Position numbers and translations under genes: made by a program | The notes under the pieces: model-generated | The model's input: only the letters and a program-made list of their open reading frames with translations | What the model was told of the DNA's origin: nothing | The model's database searches: none | In this document: in pieces, positions 13,920-22,944 of the stretch | Position numbering within the stretch: the first letter of the stretch is position 1 | Layout: each line of letters starts with the position of its first letter | Source: Saxibacter everestensis | Lineage (GTDB): Bacteria > Actinomycetota > Actinomycetes > Actinomycetales > Brevibacteriaceae | NCBI RefSeq assembly: GCF_025787225.1 | Contig: NZ_CP090958.1 | Coordinates: forward strand, 2,404,550-2,468,549 | Length of the DNA: 64,000 bases | Direction of reading: 5' to 3'

Positions 13920-15200
<1,281 letters not shown>

Positions 15201-15284
15201 TTATGGACTCCTTGACGTTTAGCTTATGAAAGTCTTTCGGCGTGCGTGGCATCTGCACACGCACGACCTACCCTAATGCACCGG

Positions 15285-17018
15285 CTAGATCAGCAGGGCG
15301 GCCAGATGACGGGGTGCCAGCGTTCCATGCGACAACACCTCGTCGTGAATCCCGGCCCGGACGTCATCGCTCATCGTCGTGCCGGATGTCACCGTCGAGA
15401 GCAGGTCGACAAGTTCGGTGTAGCCGGCGAACGGCGAAGTGAGCTCGGTTGAATTCAGCAGAACCTGACGCCAGCGAGCCTTCGCCACCGGTTTGCTGCG
15501 ATAGCCGCGCTCCACCAGTAGGCGCAGCGCCTCATCTTCCGTCATGCCATGGGCGTGCACCCGAATATCGACGATCGCATCAGTGATCACGCCGAGCTTG
15601 CCGATGACACTGAGCAGCTCTGCCTCCCAGGCGAGCTCCGGCTGCCGTTCCATCCGTAACGCGGCCAGCGCCTCCTCGGCGTAGACGGCCCAGCCGCCGC
15701 TGAAGCTTGCCGACGGAAACACCGAGCGCACCCTGGTGTGGCCGCGATACCGCCGGGCGTAAGCCTGCTGCATCAATCGCCCTGGCACGCCTTCCCGTGC
15801 GGCGTAGCTCGCAAGAGAGAGTTCGCCGAGCTGTTCAGAGTATTCGTCCGCCTCCCGGAGGGACAGCTGATCGGGAACCCCGTCAATCATCAGGTAACTC
15901 ACCGCGGTCAGCGCGTCCACGTCGTCATCGAGCGAACCGGGAACGCTCACGGTGTCGCCGCTGCCGAAGTAGCTCGGCGGGGTCCACATCACATCGCGCG
16001 GGTCATCCGGCACGGTGGCAATGCCTAGCCCCGCCGTGAGCGCCTCCGAGGCGGCGAGCTGATCGCGGAGCATACTGAGCACATGCGGTGAACGACCCGT
16101 TTCACGAAGCGCCGCCAGCAACTCGCGGGGATCGCTGACTCCGCGACGCGCGCTCAGCTCCGCAAGCAGCTCTTCCGTGGCGATCAGGTCGCTTTCTGCC
16201 CTGGTCAGCACGGCATCCGGGGTCAGCGTACTGTCCAGTGCGTACCAGAGCCGGGCCGAAAAACGCTCGGGGCCGAGCACGGGATCGCCGTGCGAGTGGG
16301 GCAGTTCATCGATCAGCCAGCGCTCATGGTCCGCGAGCGCCGCGGCTGCCTCGTCACGTGCATCGTCCAGTCGGCGTCGGTCAAGGCTGCCTAGGGAATC
16401 CGGGCCACACTCGGACGCGCTGTGTTCATGCTGATTCTTCGCCTGATCGATTACGGCGTCGAGCCGGTTGCCGAGCAGTTCGCGCGCCCCGCAGAACTGC
16501 TCGATCGCCGCCACGACGTGCACCTGAGGCATATCGGTCAGGGTTTCCCGGGCTGTCTGCAGCGCGTCAGGGAAGCGTTCCAGCCGGGACGCCAGCGCGC
16601 GCAGCCGGGTCGGCAGGTCACTGCCCGGACGGAAAATCAGGTCGTGGATGGACCGGCCCGGTGAGTGCTGCAGAGGATTCCATTCAAATGTGCGCAGCTC
16701 GGTCGTCTCCCACAGCTCCCATGCCATCCGGCCGCGGATGATCTCCAGGTCGACGGCGTCGTCATCGCACAGCGCGGTGTCGTCGATGTCATCGAGGGCG
16801 CCGAGCGAATCGACTATGACAGCTGCCTGGTCCACGATAGCTCCGGCTTCCCGTTCGCCGAGCAATGGATCGAAATCGTGGACGCCCAGCCGACTCGCCT
16901 GCTCAGGATGGGCAGCAAGCCATGAATCGAGGATGCCCTCCGCAACGCGAACAAATCGCGACGTCGTTTCAGCATCTCCGATACTGCTGTCATCGTCTCG
17001 TCCCGCAAAGAAGCCCAT
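15285..17018 (-). CDS. DUF885 family protein with degenerate metal site
   Basis: This is a 577-residue soluble, mostly helical protein of the DUF885 family, usually described as M32-like zinc carboxypeptidases. Family landmarks are ILDSWLAAHPEQASRLGVHDFD near residue 30 and AVYAEEALAALR after 444, with the C-terminal AGYTELVDL. The usual HExxPGH zinc motif is replaced by REGVPGR (408-414): both histidines are arginine. The EGWALY motif that gives the third ligand is GGWAVY (441-446), with E changed to G. With all three ligands gone and the fold retained, this is predicted to be a non-catalytic paralogue. It is last in the mfd-mazG-phosphatase row, 12 bases after the phosphatase stop. Confidence 0.8.
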   Translation of the reverse strand: MGFFAGRDDDSSIGDAETTSRFVRVAEGILDSWLAAHPEQASRLGVHDFDPLLGEREAGAIVDQAAVIVDSLGALDDIDDTALCDDDAVDLEIIRGRMAWELWETTELRTFEWNPLQHSPGRSIHDLIFRPGSDLPTRLRALASRLERFPDALQTARETLTDMPQVHVVAAIEQFCGARELLGNRLDAVIDQAKNQHEHSASECGPDSLGSLDRRRLDDARDEAAAALADHERWLIDELPHSHGDPVLGPERFSARLWYALDSTLTPDAVLTRAESDLIATEELLAELSARRGVSDPRELLAALRETGRSPHVLSMLRDQLAASEALTAGLGIATVPDDPRDVMWTPPSYFGSGDTVSVPGSLDDDVDALTAVSYLMIDGVPDQLSLREADEYSEQLGELSLASYAAREGVPGRLMQQAYARRYRGHTRVRSVFPSASFSGGWAVYAEEALAALRMERQPELAWEAELLSVIGKLGVITDAIVDIRVHAHGMTEDEALRLLVERGYRSKPVAKARWRQVLLNSTELTSPFAGYTELVDLLSTVTSGTTMSDDVRAGIHDEVLSHGTLAPRHLAALLI

Positions 17019-17030
17019 ATGCCGTAATTG

Positions 17031-17864
17031 TCAGCCGTCGGTGCCTCGGTTGTCGAGGGCCGCTACTTCCTCGGCAGGTAGCACGAGCCGGCTGCGCAGC
17101 CTGTCGATCGATTTCTCCCCCACGCCGTGGTGGTTCAGAAACTCCAGCACCGAGCCGTAATGCTCGCGGACGGTCCTGAGCACGTACCGGATCAGTTCCG
17201 GAGGGGACTGCGTAGCTGTGTTCGATACGTCTTGCACGATCCCGGCGCGGGCGAAGTTCGACTTCAATGCCTCCACGAACCCCCCGGAGAGGAATGACTC
17301 GGAGGCGGCGTAATCGGCTATTACCCATTCGTCTGGTACTCCCACTGCCGAAAGGGCGATTGCCACCACCATGCCGGTGCGATCCTTGCCTGCGCTGCAG
17401 TGCACGACCGCCGGCAGCGCGCCATCCGCAGCGAGCACTCCGACAGCCTCGACGATCTGCGGCGCGAACTTCTCCAGCGCCAGGGCATAGAGGTCCTGCA
17501 GCGTCGCGTCGGGCCGGTCGCCGGTCGAGGCGCTGTAGATGGTGTTGCCGAAGACCGGGACGTGCACCTCGTTGAGCTCCAGGCCTTGCAGGGCGTCCGG
17601 CGCGCTGTCGCGTTCAATGTCTTCGCGCAGGTCCAGCACTGTCCGCAGGCCGATATCGTGCAACGAGGCACGTGACCTGTCATCCAGGTAGCACAGGGCA
17701 TCGGCCCGGAACAATCGGCCGAAACGGGTCTGACCGCCGTCTGCCGTCGGATAGCCGCCAACGTCGCGAAAATTGAACGTACCGGCCATCTGCAACCGTC
17801 GGCCCGGGTCGTCAGAAGACACGACCTCGAAGTGCTGGCTGTCCGAAGTCTCTGGCTGGCTCAT
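17031..17864 (-). CDS. Tyrosine/phosphoinositide phosphatase, PtpB family
   Basis: This is a 277-residue phosphatase of the MptpB/lipid-phosphatase-like family. The P-loop is HCSAGKDRTG at 155-164, with catalytic Cys156 and the K160-D161 pair that marks this family's dual specificity. The N-terminal NFRDVGGYPTADG (31-43) and RFGRLFRADAL are also family hallmarks. No signal peptide is visible, although mycobacterial PtpB is exported. Its start overlaps the mazG stop by 4 bases (translational coupling), and the DUF885 gene follows by 12 bases. Confidence 0.9.
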   Translation of the reverse strand: MSQPETSDSQHFEVVSSDDPGRRLQMAGTFNFRDVGGYPTADGGQTRFGRLFRADALCYLDDRSRASLHDIGLRTVLDLREDIERDSAPDALQGLELNEVHVPVFGNTIYSASTGDRPDATLQDLYALALEKFAPQIVEAVGVLAADGALPAVVHCSAGKDRTGMVVAIALSAVGVPDEWVIADYAASESFLSGGFVEALKSNFARAGIVQDVSNTATQSPPELIRYVLRTVREHYGSVLEFLNHHGVGEKSIDRLRSRLVLPAEEVAALDNRGTDG

Positions 17865-18565
17865 GCGTCGCTCCCCTGGTGAATGCCTCCCGGCTGATGC
17901 CCGCGCTGACGCGCGTCGTACTCCCGAACCCGCAATCGTGCTTCCTCGATCCGGATCGTCTCCCTCAGTTCGGATTCCGCGTCTGCGCCGGCCGCCTCCG
18001 CCTCGGCGATAATTGCGAGCATTCGCTCGCCGCGGGACGCTGTACCTTCGGTAGTACCTGACCCCGGATTACTGTCCAACTGGGTGCGCTGGGCCTTCCG
18101 GAGTATCTTCTGCGCCCGGCTCACCGCCGGTAGTGCTTGCGGAATGCCGTCGAAAACGGACTCCCGTTCGGGCTTCTCGGCTTGTTTAAGCGCTTCCCAC
18201 CCGTTCTCGAGCGCTGCGGTGGTCACCTCGGGTCCACCCGGCTGACGCTCGAACACGTGCGGGTGACGACGTCGCAGCTTGGCCGAGATCGCTGCGATGA
18301 CATCATCGATGTCGAAGGCGTCCTGGGCGTCCTGCCCTACCCGGGCGTGAAAGATGACTTGCAGCAGCACATCGCCGAGTTCCTCCACGATGTGCTCGCG
18401 GTCGCCGCTCTCCACGGCCTCAACCAGCTCGTAGCTTTCTTCGATCAGGTAAGGCAGCAGGCTGATGTGGGTCTGTTCTCGATCCCAGGGGCACCCGCCG
18501 GGCGAGCGGAGCCGGTCCATGGTGCCGACGAGATCCATGAACGACGTACCCGATTTGTCTCTCAC
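17861..18565 (-). CDS. mazG: MazG nucleoside triphosphate pyrophosphohydrolase
   Basis: This is a 234-residue house-cleaning enzyme that hydrolyses NTPs, including oxidised or aberrant ones, to NMP and pyrophosphate. The N-terminal half carries the motif EESYELVEAVESGDREHIVEELGD split over helices 2-3 (the ExxE...ExxD magnesium site), after CPWDREQTHISLLPYL. The C-terminal half is less conserved and ends with REYDARQRGHQPG. It lies 5 bases after the mfd stop and overlaps the phosphatase start, so the four genes read as one operon. Confidence 0.94.
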   Translation of the reverse strand: MRDKSGTSFMDLVGTMDRLRSPGGCPWDREQTHISLLPYLIEESYELVEAVESGDREHIVEELGDVLLQVIFHARVGQDAQDAFDIDDVIAAISAKLRRRHPHVFERQPGGPEVTTAALENGWEALKQAEKPERESVFDGIPQALPAVSRAQKILRKAQRTQLDSNPGSGTTEGTASRGERMLAIIAEAEAAGADAESELRETIRIEEARLRVREYDARQRGHQPGGIHQGSDA

Positions 18566-18570
18566 TCGGC

Positions 18571-21500
18571 TCAGTCTAGTGATCCGGAACTGCGTGCCGT
18601 CCGAGCGCCCGACGTGCCGGTAGTGGCGGCGGCCGAAACGTCATCGAGCAGGACCCCATCGATGAGGTCCCTGGCCCAGTCCAGCAGCTCAATGTCATAG
18701 AGGTCGGTCTGGGCCAGCCCGGAACCGCGCTGCTTCGGCTTCGGTACCAGGATGGAACGAACCGCCGGTTTGATCAGGGTCTTCGGGTACAGCCGCTTAA
18801 GCCGCATCGCCTGCGAGTCGCGCAACTCGACCGGCGCCATCCGGACGAAATTGCCCTGCGCGACGATATCGCTCAGCCCCGCCTTCCGGGCGTGCACCCT
18901 GAACCGGGCGACGGCGGCCAGGTTGGCCACCGGTTCCGGGATCGGTCCATAGCGGTCGACAAGTTCGTCCAGCACCTCCTGAACCGCCTTGTCTTCCCCT
19001 GCATCGGCCAATTTCCGGTATGCCTCGAGGCGCAGCCGCTCGTGCGGAACGTACTCGTGCGGCAGGTGGGCGTTGATCGGCAGTTCGATCCGCACCTCCT
19101 GTTCCGGCTCCGGCACGTCACCGCGGAAGTTCGCCACAGCTTCTCCGACCAGGCGGATGTACAGATCGAATCCAACGCCTTCGATGTGCCCGGATTGTTC
19201 GCCGCCGAGCAGGTTGCCGGCGCCGCGGATCTCGAGGTCCTTCATCGCCACCTGCATTCCGGCGCCGAGTTCGGTGTGCGCCGCGAGGGTCTGCAAACGG
19301 TCGTGAGCGGTCTCGGTGAGCTCGCTTTCCGGCGGGTACAGGAAGTAGGCGTATGCACGTTCCCGGCCACGTCCGACCCGGCCCCGCAGCTGATGCAACT
19401 GGGAAAGTCCCAGCCGGTCGGACCGGTCGATGATCAGGGTGTTGGCATTGGAGATATCGATGCCGGTCTCGACAATGGTGGTACACACCAGAACGTCGAA
19501 CTTCCTCTCCCAGAAGTCAACGATCATCTGTTCGAGTCGCTGCTCGTTCATCTTTCCGTGAGCGACGCCGATCCTGGCCTCCGGAACCAGCTCGTTCAGA
19601 TGCTTGGCGGCTGCTTCTATCGATTGCACCCGGTTGTGGATGAAGAAGACCTGCCCTTCGCGCAGCAGCTCACGGCGGATGGCCGCGGTGACCTGCTTCT
19701 CGTCATAGGCGCCGACGTAGGTCAGCACCGGATGGCGCTCCTCCGGCGGCGTTGCCAGTGTCGACATTTCCCGGATTCCGGTGACCGCCATCTCAAGCGT
19801 TCGCGGAATCGGCGTGGCGCTCATCGACAGCACGTCGACGTTCGTGCGCAAAGCCTTCAGCGTTTCCTTGTGCTCGACGCCGAACCGTTGCTCCTCGTCC
19901 ACAACCACGAGTCCGAGATCCTTGAATCGGACCTCCCCGGACAGCAGCCGGTGCGTGCCGATCACGATATCGAGCGCTCCGGAGGTGAGTTCCTCCTTCA
20001 CCGCCTTCGACGCTGATTCCGTCTGGAAGCGGGAGAGCGAGCCGACAGTGATCGGGAATCCGGAATAGCGTTCCGAGAAGGTGTCGAAGTGTTGCTGCAC
20101 CAGCAGGGTCGTCGGCACCAGGACCGCTACCTGCTTTCCGTCCTGTACCGCCTTGAATGCCGCACGGACAGCGATCTCGGTTTTGCCGTAACCAACATCG
20201 CCGCAAATCAGACGGTCCATCGGCACCGTCTTCTCCATGTCTGCCTTGACCTCATCGATCGTGGTCAGCTGGTCGGGGGTCTCGATGTAGTTGAATGCGT
20301 CTTCAAGATCCCGCTGCCAGGGGGTGTCGGGGCCGAATGCGTGGCCCTGGGTGGCCTGACGGGCGGAATACAGCCTGATCAGCTCGCCGGCGATCTCCTT
20401 GACCGCCTTCCGGGCACGACTCTTGGTGCGGGACCAGTCCGAGCCGCCCATTTTGCTCAAGGTCGGCGACTCCCCGCCGACGTAGCGGGTGACCTGATCG
20501 AGCGAATCCGACGGCACGTAGAGCCTGTCGCCCGGCTGCCCCCGCTTGCTGCTCGCGTACTCGATCACCAGGTACTCGCGGGTGTGCTTCGTCTGACCGG
20601 ACCCGACAGTCCGCTGAGTCATTTCGACGAAGCGTCCGACACCGTGCTGTTCGTGCACGACGTGATCGCCGGGGCTGAGCTGCAACGGGTCGACCATCTT
20701 GCGGCGGCGGCTCGGCAGTCGCCGCATGTCCTTGGTGGACACCGCACTTGCCTTGCCAAGCACGTCGGCCTCGGTCAGAAAGGCGAGGCGCAGGTCCTCG
20801 GCTATGAAACCGCCGGTGGTGGCGCCGGTGGTGACCAGGACGACACCGGGTTCCGGCGCGTCATCAATGTTCTCAACCCGCCGTGCCGGGACATCGGCCT
20901 CGGAGAGGACTTCCATCAGCCGGTCAGCGGGACCGTGCCCCTCCGTGACGACCAAGGTCTGCCACTTGTCGTGGGTCAGGTTCTTCAGGTCCACCAGCGC
21001 CTGCTCGACCTCGCCGCGGTAGCTGCGCACCTCCCGCACCCCAATGCTGAAGGCGCTCGGCGCTTCCTCATCCACGAGTTCCTCATCGACCGCGAAGCCA
21101 CCGAGTGTCCACCAAGGCAGGCCGAGAACCCCCGCCGCCGCCTCGGTGTCGGCCAGCGTGCGGTAGCTGGCCGATGAGAGGTCGATCGGCGCCTTGCCGC
21201 CTGCGCTCGCGCCACTCCACGCCGCGGCCAGGAACTCTTCGCTGGTCGACACCAGGTCGGCCGCGCGTGCTTTCACCTTCTCTGGTTGCAGGACGACGAC
21301 CCTGGTGCCCTGCGGCAACGTCGCGAGGAACGGCTCCATGCCGTCGACGAGCGCCGGAGCCAGCGACTCCATCCCCTCGACCGCGATGCCGGCCGACAGC
21401 CGTTCCAGCATCTCGGCGGCGGCCGGAAACTTATCCAGCAGATCTGCGGCGCGCTGCCGGACTGCGTCGGTCAGCAGGATCTCCCGGCATGGCGGCGCCC

Positions 21501-22179
21501 AGAGCACGGAAGGCGGCGCGGAATCCAGCGACCGCTGGTCCGCGACCGAGAACTCACGGATGTCGTCGACCTCATCGCCGAAGAACTCGATTCGCAGCGG
21601 ATGCGGCTCGGTCGGCGGGAAGATGTCGAGGATGCCGCCTCGAATGGCAAACTCGCCTCGGCGTTCAACCATGTCGACGCGGGCGTAGGCGGCATTCGCC
21701 AGTGCCTCGGCTACGTCGGTCAGCGAGCGTTCGTCACCAATTTTCAGTGAAACGGGTTCCAGCTCGCCGAGTCCCTTCACCAGTGGTTGCAGCACCGCGC
21801 GGACCGGTGCGACGACGACGCGCAGCGGCGCCTGGTGCGATTCGGGATGACGCAGCCGGCGAAGCACGGACAGCCGGCGTCCAACGGTGTCCGATCGCGG
21901 CGACAGGCGCTCGTGCGGCAGGGTCTCCCACGACGGGAATATCGCAATGCCGGCCGGATCCAGGTATTGCCCCAGCGCGGCTGCAACGTCATCGGCTTCG
22001 CGGCCGGTGGCGGTGACGATCAGCTGCGGATTGTCTTCAGACCAGGCGGAGATGACCGCAGGCCACACGCCGGGCACGGCGCTGACCGTGCCGTTCGCCG
22101 CGCCGTCTGCGAGACCTCGTCGGGCCGCCGCGAAGGCGTCATCCCGAGGCAGAACTTCCAGAACACCGCGCAAAGTCAT
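18571..22179 (-). CDS. mfd: Transcription-repair coupling factor Mfd
   Basis: This is a 1202-residue ATP-dependent translocase that removes stalled RNA polymerase and recruits UvrA. Domains in order: a UvrB-like damage-recognition module at the N-terminus (FPSWETLPHERLSP, GGILDIFPP), the RNA-polymerase interaction domain (LSPGDHVVHEQHGVGRFVEM), RecG-like helicase motifs (CGDVGYGKTEIAVRAAF, VVDEEQRFGVEHKE, MSATPIPRTLEM, TTIVETGIDISNANTLI, LHQLRGRVGRGRERAYAY), and the C-terminal TRCF domain (DLYIRLVGEAVA, LPHEYVP). ATG 22179 (MTLRGVLEVLP) is used; the upstream frame is open but lacks family similarity. It heads the mfd-mazG-phosphatase-DUF885 operon. Confidence 0.97.
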   Translation of the reverse strand: MTLRGVLEVLPRDDAFAAARRGLADGAANGTVSAVPGVWPAVISAWSEDNPQLIVTATGREADDVAAALGQYLDPAGIAIFPSWETLPHERLSPRSDTVGRRLSVLRRLRHPESHQAPLRVVVAPVRAVLQPLVKGLGELEPVSLKIGDERSLTDVAEALANAAYARVDMVERRGEFAIRGGILDIFPPTEPHPLRIEFFGDEVDDIREFSVADQRSLDSAPPSVLWAPPCREILLTDAVRQRAADLLDKFPAAAEMLERLSAGIAVEGMESLAPALVDGMEPFLATLPQGTRVVVLQPEKVKARAADLVSTSEEFLAAAWSGASAGGKAPIDLSSASYRTLADTEAAAGVLGLPWWTLGGFAVDEELVDEEAPSAFSIGVREVRSYRGEVEQALVDLKNLTHDKWQTLVVTEGHGPADRLMEVLSEADVPARRVENIDDAPEPGVVLVTTGATTGGFIAEDLRLAFLTEADVLGKASAVSTKDMRRLPSRRRKMVDPLQLSPGDHVVHEQHGVGRFVEMTQRTVGSGQTKHTREYLVIEYASSKRGQPGDRLYVPSDSLDQVTRYVGGESPTLSKMGGSDWSRTKSRARKAVKEIAGELIRLYSARQATQGHAFGPDTPWQRDLEDAFNYIETPDQLTTIDEVKADMEKTVPMDRLICGDVGYGKTEIAVRAAFKAVQDGKQVAVLVPTTLLVQQHFDTFSERYSGFPITVGSLSRFQTESASKAVKEELTSGALDIVIGTHRLLSGEVRFKDLGLVVVDEEQRFGVEHKETLKALRTNVDVLSMSATPIPRTLEMAVTGIREMSTLATPPEERHPVLTYVGAYDEKQVTAAIRRELLREGQVFFIHNRVQSIEAAAKHLNELVPEARIGVAHGKMNEQRLEQMIVDFWERKFDVLVCTTIVETGIDISNANTLIIDRSDRLGLSQLHQLRGRVGRGRERAYAYFLYPPESELTETAHDRLQTLAAHTELGAGMQVAMKDLEIRGAGNLLGGEQSGHIEGVGFDLYIRLVGEAVANFRGDVPEPEQEVRIELPINAHLPHEYVPHERLRLEAYRKLADAGEDKAVQEVLDELVDRYGPIPEPVANLAAVARFRVHARKAGLSDIVAQGNFVRMAPVELRDSQAMRLKRLYPKTLIKPAVRSILVPKPKQRGSGLAQTDLYDIELLDWARDLIDGVLLDDVSAAATTGTSGARTARSSGSLD

Positions 22180-22326
22180 ATGAGCAAAATTCTTTTCTTT
22201 TTTACGATTGAGGCAGTTGCTCAGCCTACTCCGCTGCACCGACAGCCCGCGAGTCATCCACTGCCTACGGTCAAGCAACGACTCAGTTCCCAGCCTTCCG
22301 TCAGCAGCGGATGGCATTCTTGGCAG

Positions 22327-22944
22327 ATGAGTATCAGCGAAACAGGTACCCACCGGCCGATACTGCGACGCCTGTCACCCGTCGTGATCCTGCTGGCAGC
22401 AATGTGGCTGATTCACTTCGTCGACTTCGTCCTGCCGTTCGTCACGTTCACCGGGCTAGGCTTGTTGTCCTGGAGCGTACCCGGAATGCTCGGAATCCTG
22501 ACTGCTCCGCTGTTGCACGCCGGCTGGCCCCACCTGCTCTCGAACACAGTGCCGTTCCTGATTCTCGGTGCGCTGATCTGTTGGGAAAGCGGTCGCCGAT
22601 TCTGGACAGCGACCGCGATCATCGCGCTGGTCGGCGGCCTCGGCACCTGGCTCGTCGCGGTTCCGGGAACATTGACAGTTGGCGCAAGCGGACTGGTGTT
22701 CGGCTATTTCGCTTATCTGATCGCCAGGGCGTTCTTCGCACCTAAATCACCGCACCGGCTTGGCTGGCTCGTGCTCGCGGTGATACTCGGGCTGGTCTAC
22801 GGCGGCGCGATGCTGCAGGGATTGGCGCCGTGGCAGTTCGGCGTGTCGTGGCAGGGACACCTGTTTGGCGCGATCGGTGGAGTAGTGGCCGCCTGGCTGC
22901 TCTATCGACGCTCGGCGCCGAAGGTGCTCGGCGCAGCCGGGTGA
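22327..22944 (+). CDS. Rhomboid family intramembrane serine protease
   Basis: This is a 205-residue membrane protein with six helices. The catalytic pair is Ser121 in TVGASGLVFGY and His178 in SWQGHLFGAIGG. The accessory HxxxxHxxxN-like set is H64, H69 and N73 in LLHAGWPHLLSN. Rhomboids cleave other membrane proteins within or next to the bilayer; the substrate is unknown. ATG 22327 is used. It is transcribed away from mfd and converges on pth, with a 22-base gap. Confidence 0.9.
   Translation: MSISETGTHRPILRRLSPVVILLAAMWLIHFVDFVLPFVTFTGLGLLSWSVPGMLGILTAPLLHAGWPHLLSNTVPFLILGALICWESGRRFWTATAIIALVGGLGTWLVAVPGTLTVGASGLVFGYFAYLIARAFFAPKSPHRLGWLVLAVILGLVYGGAMLQGLAPWQFGVSWQGHLFGAIGGVVAAWLLYRRSAPKVLGAAG

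Follow-up and report, generated by a model that had tools for sequence, protein, structure and literature searches.

The DUF885 gene occupies the minus strand of the window, the stretch of 64,000 nucleotides from Saxibacter everestensis that was analysed, and lies between a phosphatase gene and eno. The mazG and phosphatase genes were named by searches; mfd, eno, ftsB, DUF501, and ppx are names that we assigned from the sequences. The features are as follows.

13920–15200, minus strand: eno (enolase, named from its sequence), downstream flank
15285–17018, minus strand: DUF885 gene for a predicted pseudopeptidase of 577 amino acids (open reading frame, Pfam match, and alignments)
15555–15569, minus strand: D-x-R-x-H, residues 484–488; D484 and H488 are kept in 13 of 13 degenerate members
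15681–15698, minus strand: GGWAVY replacing EGWAVY (E441G), codons 441–446 (alignments, codons)
15777–15797, minus strand: REGVPGR replacing HExxPGH (H408R and H414R, E409 kept), codons 408–414 (alignments, codons)
15930–15983, minus strand: residues 346–363, conserved in intact members (MPxxRGxAVAYCDPPGPL) and eroded in the window protein
16119–16976, minus strand: N-terminal, mainly helical half, residues 15–300, keeping 34 of 39 positions with 90% conservation among the intact members
17031–17864, minus strand: Y_phosphatase3 gene (family search), also present in relatives without DUF885 here
17861–18565, minus strand: mazG (family searches)
18571–22353, minus strand: mfd (named from its sequence), flanking the conserved locus upstream

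The DUF885 start lies 12 bases past the phosphatase stop and in the same frame (17018–17033, minus strand), without a clear ribosome-binding site; eno, by contrast, has AAGGAG ahead of its GTG start. Between the end of the DUF885 gene and eno (15241–15265, minus strand) there is an 8-base inverted repeat without mismatches, CGTGCGTG/CACGCACG, its arms 9 bases apart and with no T run, which could serve eno as an operator or leader.

The initial annotation had described an intact reading frame in which all three predicted metal ligands were lost, and both points hold. The frame encodes 577 residues with zero internal stops, and the protein is presumably cytosolic, as no signal peptide is evident by eye. 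Pfam DUF885 (PF05960) matches residues 38–574 at 185.2 bits compared with a curated cut-off of 32.4, and the match spans the whole domain (profile positions 1–530 of 532); an NCBIfam search of the protein gave no match at E up to 0.001. The HExxPGH motif is common to the intact DUF885 members examined and lies outside the Pfam cut-off criteria. In the phmmer alignment with 3U24, REGVPGR is opposite HEAIPGH and GGWAVY is opposite EGWAVY, and the MAFFT and HMM alignments with orthologues place both segments in identical columns. His, Glu, His, and Glu occupy positions 408, 409, 414, and 441 in 84 of the first 96 subfamily members to be aligned, compared with Arg, Glu, Arg, and Gly in the window protein. 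The three predicted zinc ligands are thus gone (R408, R414, and G441), and the Glu of HExxPGH (E409) is retained. An intact HExxPGH-like motif elsewhere in the protein was looked for and is absent, REGVPGR being the sole match of an xExxPGx scan. By its alignments the window protein is an enzyme homologue with its predicted catalytic residues lost, as expected of a pseudoenzyme, where the enzyme status of intact members is taken from motif and fold.

The codons at 408, 414, and 441 are CGG, CGA, and GGC, each at least two bases from every His or Glu codon, so that neither a sequencing error nor a recent single mutation explains the loss; the composition of the gene is also that of its surroundings (GC3 of 0.75 versus 0.74–0.79 in neighbours). 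The same genome contains a second DUF885 gene (L001) in which both motifs are intact (HEGVPGH and EGWALY; Pfam 549 bits), which answers a question raised in the initial annotation. This gene is only a distant relative, scoring 41 bits with the subfamily profile versus 700 bits for the window gene, the one subfamily-level match in its genome.

With the window proteins as queries, the gene order mfd-mazG-DUF885-eno-ftsB-DUF501-ppx was found in Kineosporia (L027 and L028), in genus g43 (L102, L107, and L103, the last on a contig equal in length to that of L027), and also in L091, L096, L097, L101, L106, L250, L252, and L258. Because the order from mfd to ppx is common to Kineosporia and others, the window gene is a positional orthologue. 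As it sits at the conserved locus and is the only subfamily-level match of its genome, a paralogue or an imported copy can be ruled out. Among the f35 stretches examined, none has the subfamily gene close to genes of the mfd/mazG/eno locus. Six other genomes of the family (G003, G025, G030, G057, G058, and G059) have the locus with no DUF885 gene in the 19-kb stretches around it, and a search of 59 other family genomes gave no subfamily-level match, the best reaching 62 bits. The locus of G059 is otherwise conserved and contains an inversion, with a mazG-like frame (L157:9367–10044, minus strand) on the opposite strand to mfd and eno. In four of the family genomes without DUF885 there (G003, G025, G030, and G057) the phosphatase gene is found between mazG and eno; a search of the Kineosporia loci did not find it. 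As the phosphatase gene is present where DUF885 is absent, it does not travel with DUF885, and a functional tie between the two, as suggested in the initial annotation, is unsupported. The linkage to mazG, the other tie suggested there, is ancient, but intact orthologues show it equally, and it was not seen in the f35 loci examined.

The subfamily was delimited with profile A1, which was built from 16 orthologues and separates the subfamily from other DUF885 proteins; it comprises the A1 matches above 200 bits plus G600, which matches in two stretches of one frame and was assigned on the evidence of its locus and the tree. Of the 396 genomes in the order draw, 14 scored above 200 bits with A1 and the next match was at 74, and the class draw of 394 genomes was the source of most other members. 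The resulting 97 members consist of 90 drawn evenly by order and by class, none of them counted twice, 6 chosen on purpose from g163 and g219, and 1 named locus (L031); contig-edge fragments G512 and G704, in which the motifs are not covered, were excluded, and the second G500 copy (272 bits) was counted among the controls. Degenerate members, in which catalytic residues are lost, make up 13 of the 97 members covering the region, 9 of the 90 in the even draws, and 4 of the 6 chosen from g163 and g219. The controls were DUF885 proteins outside the subfamily that matched at E up to 1e-30 in 98 class genomes, with 79 listed and 78 examined; G506:C193, which covers profile positions 1–236 only and has no motif region, was left out. 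All 78, including L001, hold HExxPGH and EGW, giving 0 degenerate proteins. Fisher tests of 9/90 versus 0/78 (p = 0.004) and, with G600, the window gene, and L001 removed, of 7/88 versus 0/77 (p = 0.015) are computed on rows that are not phylogenetically independent. Profile searches favour intact motifs, and degenerate members may be hidden in the subfamily or in the control set.

The initial annotation asked whether REGVPGR and GGW are conserved in orthologues: most orthologues keep the intact residues, and ligand losses recur in several lineages with varied replacements. At positions 408, 409, 414, and 441 the window protein has RERG, G119 RRAT, and G524 YERE; G105 and G146 have HCHE; G497, G764, and G775 have HVHE; G719, G776, and G778 have RERA, and G779 RDRA. 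In G600 (L259:2450–3790, plus strand) the HExxPGH segment is deleted in frame and AGW replaces EGW, and a 447-amino acid frame persists between mazG and eno. Of the members lacking both His residues, the window protein, G524, G719, G776, and G778 retain E409; G779 has Asp and G119 Arg at this position, and in G600 the segment is absent. A change from His to Arg at both ligand positions has occurred in two separate lineages, giving REGVPGR in the window protein and REDAPGR or RDDAPGR in g219. The g35 and g163 members keep the His, His, and Glu ligands, and the Glu of HExxPGH is replaced (by Cys or Val); from these residues such members may still bind metal, g163 possibly as a non-catalytic form. 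In genus g163 (L145, L250, L251, and L252) the motif reads HVGVPGH, with all predicted zinc ligands kept, and the gene is under strong constraint.

Trees were limited to residues 15–300 because the decayed half was to be left out. Starred branches force at least four state changes without G600 and at least five with it, the latter in a quick tree, where stars deserve less trust. One single ancestral loss is thereby ruled out, and three of the five forced separations have support in a careful tree as well. There, G524 groups with intact G579, the degenerate g219 copies group with intact G777 and G780, and g163 groups with intact G448; in the quick tree, G600 falls together with the intact G631 and G647 (support 99). 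The grouping of the window gene, G119, and g35 is weak (40/85), and the test does not reject f15 as one clade (p = 0.23). A common origin of the window gene, G119, and g35 is favoured by T170A, L483V, and G514A, which all three share, although T170A also occurs in g176 and L483V in both g176 and g219. The window gene and g35 have no common change at the four motif positions. As this grouping is unsettled, the losses are counted as 5 to 7, and by these trees the predicted catalytic residues have been lost in 5 to 7 separate lineages. Genus g219 contains four degenerate and two intact copies, and the genes on both sides of the degenerate G776 copy match the neighbours of intact G777 and G780, which points to conversion in place.

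The changes in the window protein are concentrated in its C-terminal half. Among positions that are at least 90% conserved across the intact members, 5 of 39 are changed in residues 1–300, compared with 44 of 84 in residues 301–577 with the four motif positions excluded (p = 2.4e-5). When intact members are left out one at a time, a mean of 4% (maximum 31%) is changed in the N-terminal half and 3% (maximum 19%) in the C-terminal half; the N-terminal half of the window protein is therefore inside the intact range and the C-terminal half outside it. At this threshold 11 of the 12 degenerate members other than G600 show the contrast at p < 0.05, the exception being G497 (0.11), and G600 gives 9/39 versus 44/84 (p = 0.003); at a 97% threshold the contrast is weaker (p = 0.015 for the window protein, with 5 of 12 degenerate rows above 0.05). 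Conserved positions in residues 346–363, partly or wholly, and in 395–397 are deleted in several degenerate lineages, and Gln-507, Glu-508, Lys-515, Arg-518, Gln-525, Thr-528, and Tyr-529 have been replaced, often by different residues, in the majority of the six lineages compared. The positions that are at least 97% conserved across the intact members and unaltered in 13 of 13 degenerate members are Asp-90, Pro-120, Pro-150, Leu-160, Ala-171, Leu-235, Gly-249, Leu-261, and Ala-274 before residue 300 and Ser-436, Gly-442, Trp-443, Ala-444, Asp-484, His-488, Gly-532, Gly-565, and Arg-570 after it. The retained Asp-484 and His-488 may support some chemistry. The N-terminal half is not free of change: in the careful tree its branch in the window protein is 0.89, compared with 0.39 and 0.43 for the adjacent intact single rows G133 and G073, and constraint has therefore been relaxed in this half as well. 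Recurrence of the loss in several lineages, retention of E409, and decay extending well past the three ligands are observations beyond those of the initial annotation.

Selection after the loss was assessed from NG86 dN/dS values between degenerate copies in the sister lineages g35, g163, and g219. The g35 pair gives 0.034; g163 gives 0.080 and 0.026 at dS near saturation, with a third pair saturated; and the six degenerate pairs of g219 give 0.20–0.37 compared with 0.35 for the intact pair of the genus. Five intact g43 copies range from 0.04 to 0.36 among themselves. The values of degenerate pairs are thus about those of intact pairs, and the disarmed sister genes are therefore constrained about like intact ones, showing selection after loss in these three lineages. 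For the window gene, neutral simulation of its frame produces a mean of 3.1 stops at 0.1 and 5.4 at 0.2 substitutions/site with an equilibrium GC of 0.65, and 2.6 and 4.2 stops, respectively, with an equilibrium GC of 0.75. At least six hits have fallen on the three lost codons with the frame still open, an argument which takes most of the hits to postdate the onset of the loss and by which selection would have acted on the gene of the window lineage as well. The suggestion in the initial annotation of a pseudo-enzyme that has been kept is thus strengthened by the sister lineages, with the open frame and double-hit codons as indirect support in the window gene itself.

The M32-like relation of the fold, also put forward in the initial annotation, is consistent with a structure model of an intact orthologue, L027 of Kineosporia mesophila (pLDDT 69.7, moderate confidence). 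In VIA-align 2 this model matches the DUF885 structures 3U24, 3O0Y, and 3IUK with Z values of 27.6, 25.5, and 24.0. Its M2, M3, and M32 matches overall have Z values between about 9 and 13, which helical proteins may attain without any relationship, and include the M32 carboxypeptidase 3HQ2 (Z 13.2, 359 aligned residues, 5.2 Å), M3 oligoendopeptidase F (2H1N, Z 12.8), and M2 ACE (Z about 10.8); the M32, M3, and M2 entries listed have 7–12% identity. As all entries listed below the DUF885 structures are metallopeptidases, a chance resemblance is argued against, and the modeled fold of the intact orthologue would fit that of the M32, M3, and M2 peptidases. The model of the window protein has a pLDDT of 60.8, falling below 50 in residues 327–404, and by Foldseek 3U24, 3IUK, and 3O0Y are its only matches with E up to 0.001. 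These solved DUF885 structures resemble the window protein in full-length homology, but the window protein has all three predicted zinc ligands replaced and its catalytic half eroded. It likewise differs from 3HQ2, 2H1N, and ACE, to which the modeled fold of the intact orthologue is similar, in having no predicted zinc site. According to PMC12572635, Pfam assigns DUF885 to the Peptidase_MA clan, and in one member a site made up of two His residues and a Glu is predicted.

The reading that we consider probable is that the window gene encodes a pseudopeptidase which was converted in place and has been kept for a non-catalytic role. Its ancestor would have been a metallopeptidase-like DUF885 protein of actinobacteria, with its gene between mazG and eno and passed on vertically; in the window lineage this orthologue would have become a pseudopeptidase in place, no second subfamily copy being found in the genome. 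The predicted zinc site could no longer form, metal binding and peptidase activity would have been lost, and much of the conserved active-site half would have drifted. A non-catalytic purpose would explain why the helical N-terminal half is kept along with a structural frame in the C-terminal half (PG412–413, GWA442–444, Asp-484, His-488, and Gly-532), the most likely role being that of a binding or scaffold protein acting via the conserved N-terminal half. The window gene is intact at its ancestral place and similar losses are repeated in related bacteria, and the job of the protein therefore probably does not need catalysis. Limits on this reading are the long N-terminal branch, the weaker contrast between the halves at the 97% threshold, the retained Asp-484 and His-488, and the six family relatives with no gene at the locus. 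The last of these also bears on the main rival, slow gene death, by which the peptidase became dispensable and the window gene is a relic not yet disrupted, to be lost as in its family relatives. That none of the 6 relatives examined has DUF885 at the mfd-mazG-eno locus, that the 59 other family genomes gave no subfamily-level match, that the N-terminal branch is long, and that 44 of 84 conserved C-terminal positions are changed would all be expected of such a relic. We nevertheless regard it as unlikely, because purifying selection has acted after the loss in g35, g163, and g219, the frame is fully open despite at least two hits in each lost codon, and the changes are concentrated in the C-terminal half.

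A catalytic function could also have been changed and not abandoned, with the site rebuilt so that Asp-484 and His-488 or the arginines act in a metal-free reaction, or so that an anionic ligand occupies the former zinc position. Such a site would account for the unchanged Asp-484, His-488, Gly-442, Trp-443, and Ala-444 in all 13 degenerate members and for the His to Arg changes at both ligands in two lineages, where four of the five genes have E409 and G779 has Asp. It is hard to reconcile with the divergent changes from Gln-507 to Tyr-529 in most of six lineages and with G600, which has no HExxPGH segment at all, and we judge it improbable. That the window protein is still a metallopeptidase with other ligands is very improbable: E409 and His-488 are present, but all three predicted ligands are lost, there is no second xExxPGx in the protein, and many conserved positions of the C-terminal half are changed. 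A wider reading, which is possible but on balance doubtful, is that peptidase activity was never the main job of the subfamily, the N-terminal half being the working module and the zinc site an accessory that was repeatedly discarded, even deleted, with the gene staying between mazG and eno.

The usual account of a pseudoenzyme is that a gene was duplicated and one of the two copies then decayed. The DUF885 subfamily differs in that orthologues have apparently been disarmed in place 5 to 7 times, and in one genus (g219) intact and disarmed species are found side by side with the same locus. These lineages are replicated natural experiments, in which features common to all disarmed copies should mark the non-catalytic function. 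A bacterial parallel in kind is provided by degenerate LytM factors such as DipM, with EnvC and NlpD as further examples, which have a metallopeptidase fold without catalysis, as proposed for the window protein; the LytM fold differs from that of DUF885. PMC8416486 and PMC10336132 describe degenerate LytM factors as regulators of cell-wall enzymes, and the cell-wall setting is a further difference from the DUF885 subfamily. ACN-1 of Caenorhabditis elegans, from the M2 family, is likewise a peptidase homologue of similar fold kept without its active site; it lacks the metallopeptidase active site and is termed essential in a title cited by PMC4769152. ACN-1 is eukaryotic, whereas the DUF885 case is one of repeated conversion in bacteria. 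Pseudopeptidases are well known as a class, and those in the main text of PMC11266112, which mentions neither DUF nor M32, have zinc-motif changes of the same kinds as the window protein, for example REAAV in FtsHi4 and HxxDR in alpha-MPP. In the papers on DUF885 (PF05960) that we examined we found no described peptidase activity of an intact member, partner, or motif loss, and looking for papers on the gene order or on metallopeptidase pseudoenzymes of actinobacteria gave none. A Talaromyces stipitatus protein from a fungal gene cluster, described in PMC8478523, combines nucleoside-phosphorylase-like and DUF885 domains, and this fusion is a possible hint at DUF885 substrate chemistry.
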